Below, piece by piece: positions 5,334 to 48,634 of a DNA stretch of 49,157 nt. The notes under the pieces are model-generated. The model searched no databases. It had not been told where the DNA came from and saw nothing but the letters and a program-made list of their open reading frames with translations. The position numbers and the translations under genes are program-made. The stretch spans positions 1 through 49,157 of the forward strand of contig JAITQW010000024.1 of assembly GCA_031288715.1 (NCBI GenBank), given 5' to 3'. Position 1 is the stretch's first letter. Every line of letters starts with the position of its first letter. This DNA is from Lactobacillales bacterium. GTDB lineage: Bacteria; Bacillota; Bacilli; Lactobacillales; Streptococcaceae.

Positions 5334-5487
5334 ACCCAAACTTCCAAAAACAAATTTTATTTTTGTTTGGATTTACCCAAAAAAGAAATTTAAAAGTTAT
5401 TCAGTAAGCATTATGTTAAAATTGGAAAAAAGAATAAATTTATAATTGATTCACGTAAAAATTGATTATACAAGGAGAAATCAATTG

Positions 5488-6345
5488 GTGACTTTCATAG
5501 ACGGAAAAGCATTAGCTCAAAAAACAAAAGAAACATTGAAAATACGAGTTCAAACATTGAAAGAAAAGGGAATTACTCCTGGTTTAGCAGTAATTTTAGT
5601 AGGAGAAAATCCTGCTAGCCAAGCCTACGTTCGAGGAAAAGAAAGTGATGCAAAAAGTTTAGGATTCATATCCATCATTGACCGTGTAGATGAGTCTATT
5701 TCACAAGAAGAGCTACTAAAAAAAGTTGAACAATACAATCAAGATAAAAACATTCACGGATTATTAGTACAACTTCCCTTACCAAAACATATAAATGAAA
5801 AATCCATTACACTTGCCATTGATCCAAAAAAAGATGTGGATGGCTTTCATCCTGTAAATATGGGTCATTTATTTCTTGGAAATCCACTTATGATTCCTTG
5901 TACTCCGTTTGGAATTATGCGTATGTTTGAAGAGTACGCAATTGATTTAGAAGGTAAAGAAGCCATAGTAATTGGGCGTTCTAACATTGTTGGCAAACCT
6001 ATGGCTACTCTTCTAACCATGGCAAATGCAACAGTTACTATTGCACACTCTAGAACAACTGACTTGCCCAGTATTACTAAACGAGCTGATATCTTAGTTG
6101 TGACAATAGGTCAAAGCGAAAAAATCACCAAGGAATATGTCAAAAACGGTGCTGTTGTCATTGACGTTGGAATGAACCGTTCAGAAAGCGGAAAGTTAGT
6201 CGGAGATGTCAAAACTTGCGATGTCGCAGAAATTGCAAGTTTCCTTACCCCTGTTCCCGGCGGCGTTGGACCAATGACCCGTGCTATGTTAATGGAACAA
6301 ACCGTTCTTGCTGCTGAACGATCTACTGGTGAAAATCTCGTATAA
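5488..6345 (+). CDS. folD: Methylenetetrahydrofolate dehydrogenase / cyclohydrolase
   Basis: FolD interconverts 5,10-methylene-, methenyl- and 10-formyl-tetrahydrofolate using NADP, supplying one-carbon units. Visible motifs are [13 protein letters not shown] (substrate and catalytic Lys region), [32 protein letters not shown] (nucleotide binding) and the C-terminal [18 protein letters not shown] at 5472-5478 points to a start at GTG 5488 (TTG 5485 is also possible), giving 285 aa, the normal length. A TATAAT at 5441-5446 may be its -10 box. The gene stands alone and converges on the bacteriocin cassette. A decayed copy of its last ~180 bp lies at 9657-9837. Confidence 0.95.
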
Positions 6346-6377: not shown

Positions 6378-7049
6378 CTAGTTTTTGCTTATCAATAATT
6401 TTTGATCTTTTATTTGGAAAATTTTATTTGCTAGTTGTTTTTTGAAATCCTCTGAATGTGAAGAAAAAAGAAAAATTCTCCCTGCCTTTGCCTGTGTTTT
6501 CATAATATGAATCATTCTTTCTCTGCTTTTCATATCTAATGCTCCTAATGGTTCATCTAATAAAATCAAAGGTACATCAATCGAAAAGAAACAAGCCAGT
6601 GCCAATTTACAACGCATTCCCAGTGAATAACTCTCAAGTTCCTTTTCATTAGTTAGGTTAAAATAAAGCTTTTTTAACATTTGTTTAACTTTAGAACAAT
6701 AATTTTGATCTTGACTCCAAAGATATCGGATGATTTCAATATTATCTTGATAATTTATTTTTTCATAAAATTTTGGCTTACTGGGAATAAAAATCAGCTT
6801 TTTCTTTAATTCTTCGTTTGCAATCACTTGGTTGTTAATTATTAAAGTTTCGAAATGACCTTTAAAATAAATCAATCCTGATAACAATTTCAACAACGTT
6901 GTTTTTCCCGACCCATTATCTCCAGATAAACAAGCGATGTCTCCATTTGAAAGATTAAAATGAGCATCTTCGAAAATCAATTGCTCACCATAGGAAAAAT
7001 TTAAATGCTTAATACTTATTTTTTTAATTATATCCATTGAGATTTCCAT
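6378..7049 (-). CDS. ABC transporter ATPase of the circular-bacteriocin cassette
   Basis: A stand-alone ABC ATP-binding subunit. Walker A is GDNGSGKTT, the signature is SYSLGMRC (a weak LSGGQ variant), Walker B is LILLDEP and the H-loop is FSSH. It is the last gene of a six-gene minus-strand run headed by a circular bacteriocin gene, and lies 6 bp after the SpoIIM/DUF95-like gene. In circularin A, uberolysin and AS-48 clusters an ATPase in this position works with the DUF95 membrane protein in export and self-protection. I infer the same role. Either ATG 7049 or ATG 7037 could be the start. The Leu/Ile/Phe/Lys-rich, AT-rich coding differs from the flanking housekeeping genes. Confidence 0.85.
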   Translation of the reverse strand: MEISMDIIKKISIKHLNFSYGEQLIFEDAHFNLSNGDIACLSGDNGSGKTTLLKLLSGLIYFKGHFETLIINNQVIANEELKKKLIFIPSKPKFYEKINYQDNIEIIRYLWSQDQNYCSKVKQMLKKLYFNLTNEKELESYSLGMRCKLALACFFSIDVPLILLDEPLGALDMKSRERMIHIMKTQAKAGRIFLFSSHSEDFKKQLANKIFQIKDQKLLISKN

Positions 7050-7055
7050 AGCCTA

Positions 7056-7580
7056 CTATAAAACAATTTTTAAATGTGATTCAATCAAGGCGGCAAAAAT
7101 TAATAAAAACACCAACATTATTAAAAAATAAAGGCTATATCTTATTCGAATGCATTTCTTATCAATATACCTGATATTATAAATAAACTTTTGTGTCTCT
7201 AAACCAATACTTGCAGCCATTAACAATGCAAGTATTTCTAAAAAAGCATGTGGTAAAATACCGGTTATAATCGGATTAATTCCATAGCGGTTAAAGACAC
7301 AGATCAGGACATTACCAAGAAAAATACTGTTAAAAATAATGAGCAGGAAACTTAGTAATCCGAAAGATAGGTTGCCGAAAACGATTAGGCACAAAGCAAG
7401 TCGAATATTTTGCAAAAAGATAGTAAAAAAGGAAACATTTTTGGGGTGGATATCATATTGATGATGGCAAAAAATAATGATCCCTACCAATACTAGTAAC
7501 AAATAACACGATGACATAGTAATGAGTTGCTTTTTAAAGTATTTAAAAGCCGTAATCATTTTATAAAGACAATTTTGCAA
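7056..7580 (-). CDS. SpoIIM/DUF95-like membrane protein of bacteriocin cassette
   Basis: A 174-residue integral membrane protein with about four or five hydrophobic segments. The central stretch FLGNVLICVF followed by GILPHAFLEILALL matches the conserved glycine and PHxxxE region of the SpoIIM/DUF95 family. Proteins of this family (for example As-48C and CirC) occur in circular bacteriocin clusters and pair with the ATPase for secretion or immunity. The TTG start at 7580 is supported by a very strong Shine-Dalgarno (AAGGGAGG) seven bases before it. Its start overlaps the end of the upstream 89-codon gene by 20 bp. Confidence 0.78.
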   Translation of the reverse strand: MQNCLYKMITAFKYFKKQLITMSSCYLLLVLVGIIIFCHHQYDIHPKNVSFFTIFLQNIRLALCLIVFGNLSFGLLSFLLIIFNSIFLGNVLICVFNRYGINPIITGILPHAFLEILALLMAASIGLETQKFIYNIRYIDKKCIRIRYSLYFLIMLVFLLIFAALIESHLKIVL

Positions 7581-7830
7581 AAAGGTGCCTCCCTTTACTA
7601 ATAAATTTCTTTTCTTCCTTCCGCAGAAGATAGCTGTATAAAATCAAATAAAAGAAAAAAATTATAAAAAGCAACACCGTCCATTTTGGAGGAATAAATT
7701 CTAATACGCCCTCCATCAGCAATATATAACACCAGGGAAGTACCAAGAGCCTCTTCCAGAAGGAATATAATTTTAAATATATTTCTTCTTCAAAATTATC
7801 TATTTCCTCAACGCTTCCTTGTCCTTTCAC
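7561..7830 (-). CDS. Small two-TM protein, candidate bacteriocin immunity/accessory factor
   Basis: An 89-residue protein with an acidic N-terminus, two hydrophobic segments (about residues 28-45 and 50-68) and a basic C-terminus (RKEEKKFISKGR). It starts with GTG inside TAGTG, where the stop of the preceding gene and this start share one base. There is no clear Shine-Dalgarno, so translation is probably coupled. I do not recognise a family. Circular bacteriocin clusters usually carry a small cationic hydrophobic immunity protein, and this is the best candidate by size and position. That role is inference only. Confidence 0.6.
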   Translation of the reverse strand: MKGQGSVEEIDNFEEEIYLKLYSFWKRLLVLPWCYILLMEGVLEFIPPKWTVLLFIIFFFYLILYSYLLRKEEKKFISKGRHLFAKLSL

Positions 7831-8471
7831 TAATCGATAGTTTTACTAAAAATATACGGACTTACAAACAAAGATAACCTGGGACCATAAAAAAATGACC
7901 AAAGAGATAGCAAAAGCAAAAAAATCATTGAAAAAATTAGAATAGCAACATGATGAATAAAGAAAATTTCTACTGCAATGGAAAATAAAAAAATAGCAGC
8001 CATTGGTATCAATGAAATACTTTTGAGTACAGCAATCTTTGTTTGATACAAATCAAAAAAACATCCCGAAAGTTTATAAATATATAATTGCGACTCGTCT
8101 ATTCGATAACGAAAAACGGGCAATAATTTATACTGTAAATTTTGGATAACTTCTAATTCAGAAACAAAAGCACTAAATATAATTAGAAAAACCATCAACA
8201 TAGGATTTTTCACATAGCGTAAAAAAATTAATAATACCCATAAGATTACAATCGTTGATGTAGATAAAAAATATGATAATGTGCCGGTTTCAAGATATTT
8301 TCGATCATTTTTAATGGTCCTTAATTGAGTAACAAATAAAATTTTCTTATCAAAAAACTGTTCACCAATTTTTTGCCACATTTTGATAAGTCTCAGTTTT
8401 AAAGGTGAAGGAAAATAGATAAATTCAGAATTATCCAGAATTTTCTCTAATTTAATTTTTGAACGATACAT
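7830..8471 (-). CDS. Multi-TM membrane protein of bacteriocin cassette (B-like, second part)
   Basis: A 213-residue protein with a soluble basic N-terminal region of about 60 residues and then about five hydrophobic segments. Its ATG sits in TAATG, sharing one base with the stop of the upstream gene, and no Shine-Dalgarno is evident, so translation is probably coupled. I do not recognise conserved motifs. Circular bacteriocin clusters encode one large (about 550-residue) multi-spanning maturation protein (CirB, As-48B). This gene and its upstream neighbour may be two halves of such a protein. That is inference from size and position. Confidence 0.65.
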   Translation of the reverse strand: MYRSKIKLEKILDNSEFIYFPSPLKLRLIKMWQKIGEQFFDKKILFVTQLRTIKNDRKYLETGTLSYFLSTSTIVILWVLLIFLRYVKNPMLMVFLIIFSAFVSELEVIQNLQYKLLPVFRYRIDESQLYIYKLSGCFFDLYQTKIAVLKSISLIPMAAIFLFSIAVEIFFIHHVAILIFSMIFLLLLSLWSFFYGPRLSLFVSPYIFSKTID

Positions 8472-9121
8472 TAAAATTGCTGTATCTTTTTAAAAATAAA
8501 AAATAATTTATCTAACTCTTGATGCCACTGCTCACTCAGAGCAGTATCAACTTTTCTTAGTGAATTTGTGTTCATTCCTTGATTAAAAATAATTTTCTTG
8601 AGTAGTTGGAAACTTCTAATGAGAAATCCCAAAAACATCTGAATCAAAGTAAGAGCTACCGCCGTTTTCATAATATATGAAAATAAAGAAATGCTTTTTA
8701 AACCTGTTTGTTTTTTAATTAATTCTCGTTTTTTAAGGGCGTATACTCTCACTAATGTGTAGGAAAATGATGCAAAAAAGAAACTAAACAACAAGGGAAA
8801 GGCTAGATCTAACCGAAAAACTAAAAAATAACAAAGAGTCCCAATTACCTTGTCAAAATAAACAACATAAAAAAAGAGGATTTCGCTTATCATTGTTATG
8901 TAAATCCTAACCTGTTTACTCTTTGGATTCATCATCATCCAATCGAAAGATAATGCTTGTAAGGCACTCTTTGAATGTTTAATGATAAATTCTAAGTGCA
9001 AAAATAGGTAGATCAATACAATAAAAAAATCGTAATAGTCAGTAAATAAAAGGGGAACAAATAATTTTCGTATTAAAAACAATGTTCCTGTAAATAAAAC
9101 TGTTTTCCCTAAAGTGAGCAA
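8471..9121 (-). CDS. Multi-TM membrane protein of bacteriocin cassette (B-like, first part; start uncertain)
   Basis: A 216-residue membrane protein with about five hydrophobic segments, ending in a charged tail and overlapping the next gene by one base (TAATG). The apparent start is a TTG at 9121 with no convincing ribosome-binding site. A better site lies upstream: AGGAG at 9233-9237, then TTG 9220-9222, opening a frame that encodes YQYLKNTFHNRLINN and continues into this gene only if the reading frame changes near an A7 tract at 9142-9148. So the gene may be frameshifted, may use slippage, or may truly start late. It is probably part of the bacteriocin maturation/export membrane complex. 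Confidence 0.55.
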   Translation of the reverse strand: MLTLGKTVLFTGTLFLIRKLFVPLLFTDYYDFFIVLIYLFLHLEFIIKHSKSALQALSFDWMMMNPKSKQVRIYITMISEILFFYVVYFDKVIGTLCYFLVFRLDLAFPLLFSFFFASFSYTLVRVYALKKRELIKKQTGLKSISLFSYIMKTAVALTLIQMFLGFLIRSFQLLKKIIFNQGMNTNSLRKVDTALSEQWHQELDKLFFIFKKIQQF

Positions 9122-9354
9122 AATAAAAAATAAAGTTCGCCTTTTTTTGTAATGTGCGGTAATAACATTTGATAGTTATTGATTAACCTGTTGTGAAAAG
9201 TGTTTTTTAAGTACTGGTACAACTAAAACCATCTCCTGCTTTTAAAATGCGAAAAATATATTCGAAGGAATTAATTTGAAATTCGTTTAAATAATAAAAT
9301 TAGACAGTAGCTACAAATTTTTAAATTATATAATTGGAGCTGCATAGAAAATTA

Positions 9355-9585
9355 TTAGTAAGCTATCGCTTTTTTGATACCTCTTTTTGCTAATCTTTTC
9401 ACCGTTTGTTTAAAAGTTTCCCACCCAATTGTCAAAAGAGTTGCGCTTCCAGCTGACGCTACAGAAGCTAAGATACCCAATACCGTCACAAATGTGCCTG
9501 CATGCAAAATAATATTAACAACTGCTGTCGCCGTTGCTTCTGGAACACCCAACGATGCTGCAACATTGGCTAAAAATGGATTCAT
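9355..9585 (-). CDS. Circular bacteriocin precursor, circularin A / uberolysin / AS-48 type
   Basis: A 76-residue precursor closely resembling circularin A. From Val8 onward the sequence runs VAASLGVPEATATAVVNI, with AGTFVTVLGILAS, LLTIGWETFK and the C-terminus KKAIAY, motif for motif like circularin A as I recall it. Cleavage after MNPFLAN would leave exactly 69 residues, the same as circularin A, with Val8 joined to Tyr76. Family members are cyclised head to tail, fold into a saposin-like helical bundle and permeabilise membranes of related bacteria. GGAAAGGAT upstream is a good ribosome site. It heads a minus-strand run of membrane and ABC genes. The mature boundary is inferred by homology. 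Confidence 0.92.
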   Translation of the reverse strand: MNPFLANVAASLGVPEATATAVVNIILHAGTFVTVLGILASVASAGSATLLTIGWETFKQTVKRLAKRGIKKAIAY

Positions 9586-9621: not shown

Positions 9622-9655
9622 GTACAAATAGTATCATAATTATTTATCTGTTATC
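9622..9655 (-). promoter_or_regulatory. Possible promoter of the bacteriocin gene
   Basis: On the minus strand TTGTAG is followed at about 17-18 bp by TATGAT/TGATAC, roughly 40 bp before the bacteriocin ATG. The -35 box is at the edge of the decayed folD fragment. The assignment is by eye and tentative. Confidence 0.35.
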
Positions 9656-9656
9656 T

Positions 9657-9837
9657 ACAAAATATGTTAAAAACGGTACTATTATTATTGACACTGGGTT
9701 GAGATAGATCGCTCAGAAAGCGGAAAGTTAGTCGGAAATATCAAAATTTGCAATGTTGCAGAAATCACAAGCTTCCTTACCCCTGTTCCGGGACGTTGAA
9801 TCAATGAATTCGTGCTATGTGGATGGAACAATCCGTT
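9657..9837 (+). pseudogene. folD: Decayed duplicate of the folD 3' end
   Basis: This stretch aligns with bases about 6130-6306 of intact folD. Shared blocks include AAAAACGGT, TCAGAAAGCGGAAAGTTAGT and CTTCCTTACCCCTGTTCC. Most differences are G-to-A and C-to-T transitions, with small indels and stop codons, which is typical of unselected decay. It is in the same orientation as folD, so the bacteriocin cassette lies between an intact and a dead copy of the folD tail. No initiation site or complete domain is present. Confidence 0.88.
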
Positions 9838-9861: not shown

Positions 9862-10149
9862 CTATATTCCAAAACTATTTAACGTATCTACAACCTTCGT
9901 CAGATTACCTTTATTTCTTCCATCTTTATCCAATGGAGAAATCACTTCTAATGCATCTATTCGTACAATTAACGATCTATTTAATATCGTATGTTTATCG
10001 TTCGCAAAAATATGCAGCTCTTCCTCTAAAATATTTACACAAGCATCCTTCCAAGCAGCAAACGGCTCTTTTTCAGAATAAACTTCCTTCTTCACAAAAA
10101 CATGATCATTCAATAAATGAAAAGCAATATCATAATACTTTCCCTTCAT
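9862..10149 (-). CDS. Hypothetical protein, 95 aa
   Basis: A small soluble, mixed-charge protein of 95 residues that I do not recognise. It has no signal peptide, membrane segment or cysteine-rich motif apart from a single Cys. The ATG is preceded by AGGAGGTGAGA at ideal spacing, so translation is credible. It sits just beyond the dead folD fragment and may have been the original convergent neighbour of folD before the cassette arrived. Alternative start ATG codons two to three codons upstream are not in the same frame. Confidence 0.7.
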   Translation of the reverse strand: MKGKYYDIAFHLLNDHVFVKKEVYSEKEPFAAWKDACVNILEEELHIFANDKHTILNRSLIVRIDALEVISPLDKDGRNKGNLTKVVDTLNSFGI

Positions 10150-10404
10150 TCATTCTCACCTCCTACTTATAAAATGAACTCTACATATAGAGAAATTAAT
10201 CATCTATGATAAATTTTTATATTCATAGATTACTAATTAATTGACCTTCTTGCAATGTGCTATATTCACCAATCCAGGGGTTTGCACCCAACTTCATTCA
10301 GTCTTTACTTCACGATAAACTCCTTGTCTTTCGCTAACAATTCCTACTGCCATGCCTGTCGTGGAACTTACACCACTTAGTATTAAATCATGCAGGGTGC
10401 ACAT
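10150..10404 (-). other. Spacer with a short decayed coding-like stretch
   Basis: Between the 95-aa gene and the HU terminator there is no intact gene. At about 10290-10390 the minus strand gives a short open segment reading SGVSSTTGMAVGIVSERQG and ending in TGA; it looks protein-like but lacks a start and a recognisable family. It may be a gene fragment. The rest is AT-rich with nothing I can name. Confidence 0.3.
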
Positions 10405-10445
10405 AAAAAACAGCCAAATCAAAAATACATTCCGATTCAACTGTT
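10405..10445 (-). terminator. Rho-independent terminator after the HU gene
   Basis: On the minus strand ACAGTTGAATC pairs with GATTTGGCTGT (11 bp, three G-T pairs) and is followed by TTTTTT. Closer to the gene lies an AT-only perfect 12-bp hairpin (ATTTAAAAAATT / AATTTTTTAAAT), which may contribute to 3'-end stability. Confidence 0.7.
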
Positions 10446-10500
10446 TCCGATACATTTAAAAAATTATAGAATTTTTTAAATAAATAAAACTCAATAATTT

Positions 10501-10773
10501 TTATTTAACTGCGTCTTTCAATCCTTTTCCTGCACGGAATGCTGGGGTTTTTGAAGCTGGGATCGTAATCGCTTTTTTAGTTTGCGGGTTACGCCCTTTA
10601 CGTGCAGCACGATGACGAACTTCAAAATTTCCAAAACCTATCAATTGAACTTTCTCACCTTTTCCTAAAGTTTCTTGAATTGTTTTGAATACTGCATCTA
10701 CCGCTGCAGCAGCATCCTTCTTTGTAGTTCCTGTCTTATCTGCAACTGCATCTACTAAACCTGCTTTATTCAT
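10501..10773 (-). CDS. hup: DNA-binding protein HU
   Basis: A 90-residue histone-like HU protein, full length for the family. It starts [15 protein letters not shown], and the DNA-wrapping arm carries [20 protein letters not shown] with the Pro that intercalates into DNA, ending [10 protein letters not shown]. It bends and compacts the nucleoid as a dimer. It is a single-gene unit with its own strong promoter and terminator. A GAAAGGGTG ribosome site lies upstream. Confidence 0.97.
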
Positions 10774-11143
10774 AAAATAAACACCCTTTCAATTTAAACT
10801 TTCAATTTAAAAAATTTGGTTAAGACAGCAGATTTCTGCCTTTCCTGAACCGATTATACCAGTAGAAAGTAACAATGCAATATAAAACTAATGATTTTAA
10901 AGTATTTTTATTGTTTTCACTAAATTTTCAAAATTTTATGCTTATTTTCAAAAAATAATCCATTTTATAAAGTTTAATATTTAATAATATAACAGATATA
11001 TAATGCTTTGTTGACTGATTTTTATATTAAATATCCTATTTCTTTCTATTTTTTACAAAAATTTTTCTATGAAAATTAGAAAACAAGAAGAAAATACTTA
11101 ATATCTCTCAAAACATATGCTCATTAGCCCTATTTCATAAAAA
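10774..11143. other. HU leader and AT-rich spacer
   Basis: The 370 bp between HU and mutL hold the HU promoter and an ~80-nt 5' leader. The leader contains a small hairpin (GCAGA-AA-TCTGC) and two copies of TTTAAATTGAAAG before the start codon. The part from 10890 to 11143 is very AT-rich. I see no gene in it and no clear mutL terminator. Confidence 0.5.
10853..10880 (-). promoter_or_regulatory. HU promoter with extended -10
   Basis: On the minus strand TTGCAT is separated by 16 bp from a perfect TATAAT, which is preceded by TGG (extended -10). This predicts a strong sigma-A promoter, fitting the abundance of HU. Confidence 0.8.
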
Positions 11144-30910: not shown

Positions 30911-31049
30911 ACCTCTTGTAAAATCAAGTATTACGCATCAAACATCACCTCGAGCTTGGTAGGTTTCATGCCTACCAAGCAGCGAAATTCTTCGAATTTG
31001 TATGTTTCCTTTTATTTTTCATACATTAATTATGCTTCGCAAGAGATCT
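30911..31049. repeat. 139-bp element with covarying hairpin, copy 1
   Basis: Direct repeat of 31401-31539. Both begin CTCTTGTAAAATCAAGTATT and end in AAGAGATCT, so the ends are inverted. The internal hairpin (30954-30980) has stem GCTTGGTAGG / CCTACCAAGC with loop TTTCATG. The second copy has ACATGGTAGG / CCTACCATGT, so the stem changed on both sides. This copy starts right after the trxA stop and lies upstream of polC. It is not a known family to me. Confidence 0.9.
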
Positions 31050-31050
31050 A

Positions 31051-31400: not shown

Positions 31401-31539
31401 ATCTCTTGTAAAATCAAGTATTACGCATCAACCATTATCTCGAACATGGTAGGTTTCATACCTACCATGTAGCGAAATTCTTCGGATTGTATATTTTCTT
31501 TTATTTTTTTATGCACTAATTATGTTTCAAAAGAGATCT
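31401..31539. repeat. 139-bp element with covarying hairpin, copy 2
   Basis: Second copy, upstream of trxA and downstream of rlmB. The internal hairpin is at 31444-31470. Differences from copy 1 are scattered substitutions, and those inside the stem preserve pairing. Ends carry imperfect inverted CTCTTG / AAGAG. No open reading frame is present. Confidence 0.9.
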
Positions 31540-31621
31540 ATTGTAAGATTTTCATGAAATCTAGTATCCGCATCTGAAAAAATTATACCAAATAAATAAA
31601 AATTGTGATATTGATTATAAT

Positions 31622-48394: not shown

Positions 48395-48634
48395 TTGATT
48401 ATAAATTGTAACTCAAAACCGCCCACCCATCAAAACTCAGTTAATCAGCACATTAAGTATTATCCAAACGAATTGTGCCAAATGATTTATACTTCTTCAA
48501 GCTTGATTACTGAAACAATTTTTCAAAAGTTTAAACAGAAGGTTCCAACCTATCGCCAAGAAAAGCTTTGGACCAACTTAGGACTACCTTTAAATCGCGA
48601 TATGATTTGTAATTGGCATCAAGTTTGTGTGTGA
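48395..48634 (+). pseudogene. IS66-family transposase fragment
   Basis: The frame encodes SSLITETIFQKFKQKVPTYR followed by QEKLWTNLGLPLNRDMICNW, which matches the conserved middle of IS66 transposases (PSLV...QKY...LPLYRQE, LSR.T..NW). The catalytic DDE region and both ends are absent. The start is not real. It is a truncated relic. Confidence 0.72.

Follow-up and report, generated by a model that had tools for sequence, protein, structure and literature searches.

Six tightly packed open reading frames (ORFs) occupy the minus strand from position 6378 to 9585 of the window, by which we mean the whole stretch of 49,157 nucleotides analysed here (contig 32 of the source assembly). All six lie where an initial annotation had placed them when it read the region as a circular bacteriocin cassette of the circularin A type. 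The last gene of the cassette ends only about 30 bp from a convergent, intact folD, and part of folD recurs beyond the opposite end of the cassette. The features are listed below, where RBS denotes a ribosome-binding site, TM a transmembrane segment, and B the CirB-type protein of the related loci L193, L023 and L134.

6124..6306, plus strand: left repeat copy, codons close to the folD 3' end (folD 5446-6345, intact); aligns with 9653-9837
6378..7049, minus strand: ABC transporter ATPase, 223 aa; PF00005, E 3.7e-19
7056..7580, minus strand: SpoIIM/DUF95 membrane protein, 174 aa; PF01944, E 1e-19; RBS GGGAGG 7 nt before a TTG start
7561..7830, minus strand: C-terminal part of a CirB-type protein, 89 aa; TAGTG overlap with the preceding stop, no RBS; matches L193 B 514-597 (E 4e-6)
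7830..8471, minus strand: middle part of the CirB-type protein, 213 aa; TAATG overlap with the preceding stop, no RBS; matches L193 B 314-512 (E 5e-8)
8471..9121, minus strand: N-terminal part of the CirB-type multi-TM protein, 216 aa; starts at TTG and lacks a clear RBS; matches L023 B 25-216 (E 5e-6) and L134 B 69-275 (E 3e-4)
9355..9585, minus strand: circularin A-type precursor, 76 aa, with a predicted leader/core split; RBS GGAAAGGA upstream
9653..9837, plus strand: right repeat copy, a decayed piece of the folD 3' end lying immediately past the precursor

The precursor and its closest relatives

The precursor scores 72.2 bits (E 3.3e-20) against TIGR03651, the circularin A/uberolysin model with a family cut-off of 30.7, and 38.5 bits against PF09221 (Bacteriocin_IId; cut-off 23.6). 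Judged by sequence comparison these matches are far above chance; they bear out the type first assigned to the 76-aa product. A search of the PDB by precursor sequence likewise returned AS-48 (E 8e-07). We predict a leader of seven residues (MNPFLAN) and a core of 69 aa running from Val8 to Tyr76. Aligned without gaps, circularin A and precursor residues 8-76 are identical at 44 of 69 positions (64%), and the match starts at Val8 and ends at Tyr76, exactly the leader and core boundaries of the initial annotation. The circularin A letters used for this alignment yield a cyclic mass of 6770.96, a charge of +4 and a GRAVY of 1.01, and their agreement with the published values of 6770.99, +4 and 1.007 serves as a check of the sequence (PMC6131525). 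The same core length, the same termini and the high identity place the new peptide within the circularin A subfamily. Its predicted average mass is 7019.24 Da when cyclic and 7037.3 Da when linear, with a computed charge of +5 and pI of 10.3. Cleavage between Asn7 and Val8 is supported by cerecyclin, whose precursor is also cut at an Asn-Val bond (N4-V5; PMC8534725). Structure prediction of the 69-mer, a check that had been proposed, was too weak to bear on the saposin-like helical bundle of the family: a single-sequence AlphaFold model of the core is helical (helices at 9-38 and 41-60), but its confidence is low (pLDDT 67, pTM 0.40), and a comparison of this low-confidence model with the PDB gave no significant match and no circular bacteriocin.

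The locus resembles the cirABCDE cluster of Clostridium beijerinckii ATCC 25752 in the length and end residues of the core (Val first, Tyr last) and in its genes for a large membrane protein, a DUF95 protein and an ABC ATPase. It differs from that cluster at 25 of the 69 core residues, in the leader (MFL in circularin A), in the division of the CirB-type protein among three ORFs and in that a cirE-like immunity gene is not seen here. Uberolysin, enterocin AS-48 and cerecyclin belong to the same class and share the DUF95 and ABC genes, but they are of lower identity and have other leaders; AS-48 clusters also have more genes (PMC7132975). A first scan of genome contigs with the precursor found no relative, and a later genome search reached the nearest one, L193:3100-6372, in a Streptococcus-like genome of the same family (G209), whose precursor matches at 63% over 73 aa. 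That cluster has the same gene set, with a homologous B protein, a DUF95 protein at 50% and an ATPase at 38%; it differs in that its B protein is one ORF of 597 aa directly after the precursor, and in that its ATPase gene is followed by a 64-aa two-TM ORF, probably an immunity gene. At the present locus no attenuator hairpin was found between the precursor and the membrane genes (z +1.25), and promoter and terminator scans gave scores no higher than those of shuffled sequence.

Because the precursor family, the DUF95 gene, the ATPase gene and the gene order are all present, we read the locus as encoding a circular (head-to-tail) bacteriocin of the circularin A/uberolysin family, with a cyclised product as predicted, and put the probability of this reading at roughly 0.85. 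The DUF95/SpoIIM and ATPase genes, which had been correctly recognised from the outset, are both intact. In the mechanism that we envisage, the precursor would be cut between Asn7 and Val8, and Val8 would then be joined to Tyr76 by a membrane machinery composed of the CirB-type protein and the DUF95/SpoIIM protein; the ABC ATPase would aid export, and the cationic (+5), hydrophobic peptide may damage the membranes of competing Gram-positive cells. A peptide acting as a linear bacteriocin, or as a membrane peptide that is no bacteriocin, would be conceivable, cyclisation being here a prediction, but we consider it very improbable, given that characterised members of the TIGR03651 family are cyclised head to tail (PMC6131525) and that DUF95, the class-defining gene, is present. 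The cassette is well supported as an additional locus of the circularin A kind, ordinary in its class, unusual in its divided maturation gene and remarkable for its genomic setting, and the peptide itself adds one relative of circularin A.

A CirB-type protein in three parts

Of the five genes annotated downstream of the precursor on the same strand, all stand as placed, but two multi-TM proteins and an 89-aa protein do not stand as separate genes: from their matches, the ORFs of 216, 213 and 89 aa are the collinear N-terminal, middle and C-terminal parts of a single CirB-type protein. Homology thus makes the 89-aa ORF the tail of that protein and not a gene for immunity. The ATPase gene is followed by no small cationic ORF of the immunity type, and none was convincing among the ORFs of at least 20 aa listed at the locus. 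The initial description of a normal part list accordingly fails, with the CirB-type protein in pieces and a dedicated immunity gene not seen. Some immunity genes are tiny or located elsewhere, and absence at the locus is not proof of loss.

Deletion of cirB abolishes circularin A production (PMC9726714); since the gene is essential there, the state of the split CirB decides whether the present locus produces. The locus is either a working split version or a recently silenced one. We give even odds to a decaying, non-producing cluster in which frame changes have disrupted the CirB gene and the immunity gene has disappeared, leaving the precursor, DUF95 and ATPase genes as still-undamaged remnants. 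CirB is, after all, a single chain in L193 and in most other cassettes of the same genome (705, 386, 374, 543, 447, 430, 413 and 394 aa), and the inner CirB starts have no RBS, in contrast to the good sites of the precursor (GGAAAGGA) and DUF95 (GGGAGG) genes. Decay is also seen elsewhere in the genus, in the frame-broken precursor of cassette C16b, a DUF95 fragment (L136), remnants at L133 and a stop-containing DUF95 gene (G003:C3). On the other hand, each of the three pieces is open over its full length despite the AT-rich DNA, and a CirB-like protein is split at one point in two other species (241+252 aa in G003, 238+250 aa in G004), which argues that splits can persist.

Both inner junctions, moreover, are TAATG or TAGTG overlaps of the kind found in coupled genes. 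This would suit a CirB made as three subunits, coupled in translation and assembled in the membrane, with self-protection drawn from the ATPase and DUF95 proteins or from one of the other ten cassettes of the genome. Naturally split membrane proteins are known from other cassettes of this class (L024, L137, L127, L131), and we hold such a working split to be a serious possibility, though one we would rate below even. It has to contend with the missing RBS at the inner starts, with the apparent absence here of a TM segment that separates the counterparts of parts 1 and 2 in L193, and with the lack of the same three-way split in any of the relatives compared. Maturation proteins of the opposite kind were also observed (L016:8524-10641 on contig C35; also L188 and L189), namely a CirB-type protein fused to DUF95/SpoIIM as a single 705-aa chain on contig C35 of this genome and similar B-DUF95 chains, 736 and 755 aa long, in G447, which belongs to another family and has three TIGR03651 precursors. 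Split, whole and DUF95-fused maturation proteins together form a natural set for asking which part performs cyclisation.

Eleven cassettes in one small genome

The cassette itself is of a known kind, and the novel part is the multiplicity of such cassettes together with the repeats that flank them. The source genome probably belongs to the Streptococcaceae, since its family includes genomes with FolD loci closest to those of named Streptococcus; a FolD scan matched named genera only at a distance (about 62%), and the assembly contains no 16S rRNA. The source assembly (1.27 Mb in 53 contigs, 88.6% complete) holds 11 copies of PF01944 (DUF95/SpoIIM), as against 2, 3, 5 and 2 in four genomes of the same genus and 0-2 in 35 other genomes of the family or order in the same search. 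Among 394 other Lactobacillales, PF01944 was present in 29 genomes with a maximum of two, in a pass that scored 9 of the 11 copies of the source genome. Four intact precursors exceed the TIGR03651 cut-off in the source genome, with a fifth that is frame-broken, and the maximum among 398 other Bacilli is three. The precursors of cassettes C42, C21b and C29 were tied in by profile comparison (probabilities 95 and 86), and that of C21a showed a weak profile link (57); no such link was found for the precursor of C46, and that of C6 lies off the contig. In a published survey the maximum was two independent circular bacteriocin clusters per strain, in Paenibacillus larvae (PMC7132975), which likewise carries more than one cluster per genome, but two as compared with the eleven DUF95 cassettes here.

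Between the eleven cassettes, DUF95 and ATPase proteins share only 15-33% identity, apart from the pair C21b/C42 (42/56%), and the cassettes are therefore not the outcome of recent amplification. On the same identities, and on a contamination estimate of 0.02, we rejected strain duplicates in the assembly as the source of the eleven. A reduced bacterium that has shed much of its gene content and still keeps some eleven different cassettes would, if true, illustrate unusually strongly how bacteriocins serve warfare or the exclusion of competitors within a confined niche.

As read from the sequence, the cassettes adjoin the core genes folD, pgi, ftsH, fba/folP, mnmG, guaA and gpmA, and biotin genes. 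The latter lie on contig C29 (L129:808-5812 and 10094-10795), where bioB, bioA, bioD, bioF, a BioG-like small hydrolase without an NCBIfam match and bioC surround another cassette; nutritional symbionts typically supply biotin. On contig C16 (L019:7780-8020) an uberolysin-like precursor is frame-broken, and its counterpart in the same cassette of genome G002 (L021) is intact at 80 aa. Other candidate bacteriocin genes were also noted. A member of the lactococcin 972 family (L127:11737-12042, contig C21; 39.7 bits, cut-off 32.1), with membrane and ABC genes adjacent, adjoins cassette C21b, and a 60-aa Ala/Cys-rich peptide without a family match (L131:7050-7229), possibly another peptide bacteriocin, lies beside cassette C42.

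Flanking direct repeats and proposed cassette insertion

The BLAST core of the folD repeat aligns 6134-6306 with 9661-9837 at 79.9% over 179 bp (E 1e-39), and FolD matches in the genome are confined to these two places. Probably, insertion of the cassette beside folD left a second copy of the folD 3' end at its opposite flank. Comparable repeats bracket other cassettes: 438 bp at 86%, with only two copies in the genome, around C21b; 109 bp at 83%, corresponding to the 3' end of the adjacent gene, around a cassette of G003; and, around C16a, 76 bp at 96% next to an element that is dispersed in over 40 copies and makes up part of the right-hand repeat, only the 76-bp part being counted as locus-specific. 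Shorter direct repeats flank C46 and C29, and a 79-bp repeat that may include dispersed-element sequence flanks G004_C42. Paired repeats are separated by 3.3-3.7 kb, approximately the cassette length plus 0.1-0.4 kb. As controls, matches this strong were rare between mismatched flank pairs and came from orthologous or dispersed sequence, and 351 kb of genus sequence contained five other direct repeats of at least 60 bp, some of them probably dispersed elements.

Long, locus-specific direct repeats around several cassettes suggest serial insertion. They would be explained by an insertion that duplicates its site, and also by a circular molecule that bears the site and integrates through a single crossover. 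No integrase or transposase was seen within the cassettes. The precursor had a single match among plasmids (42.7%, Anoxybacillus) and none among phages, and the sequences give no indication of a plasmid or phage origin. In the relatives, folD, fba and mnmG have no cassette next to them, but gene order differs too much between species for true empty sites to be aligned. We tentatively propose, at odds falling only just short of even, that in this genus, whose Lactobacillales genomes are very small (about 0.9-1.27 Mb), the cassettes form a scattered arsenal that is turning over, inserted by an unrecognised route with no integrase or transposase in the cassette, each insertion copying a stretch of 100-450 bp at the target (the folD 3' end in the present case), and then gradually decaying. 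The genome offers a test case for how circular-bacteriocin cassettes move between bacteria.

Other repeats were observed in passing. A thioredoxin-like gene of the window is flanked by two direct copies of a repeat roughly 139 bp long, 86% identical (30913-31050 and 31403-31540). Dispersed repeats of about 120-160 bp, present in more than 40 copies (e.g., L018:8300-8680), stand at many contig ends of the source genome and probably break its assembly; positions 48395-48634 of the window may belong to them.
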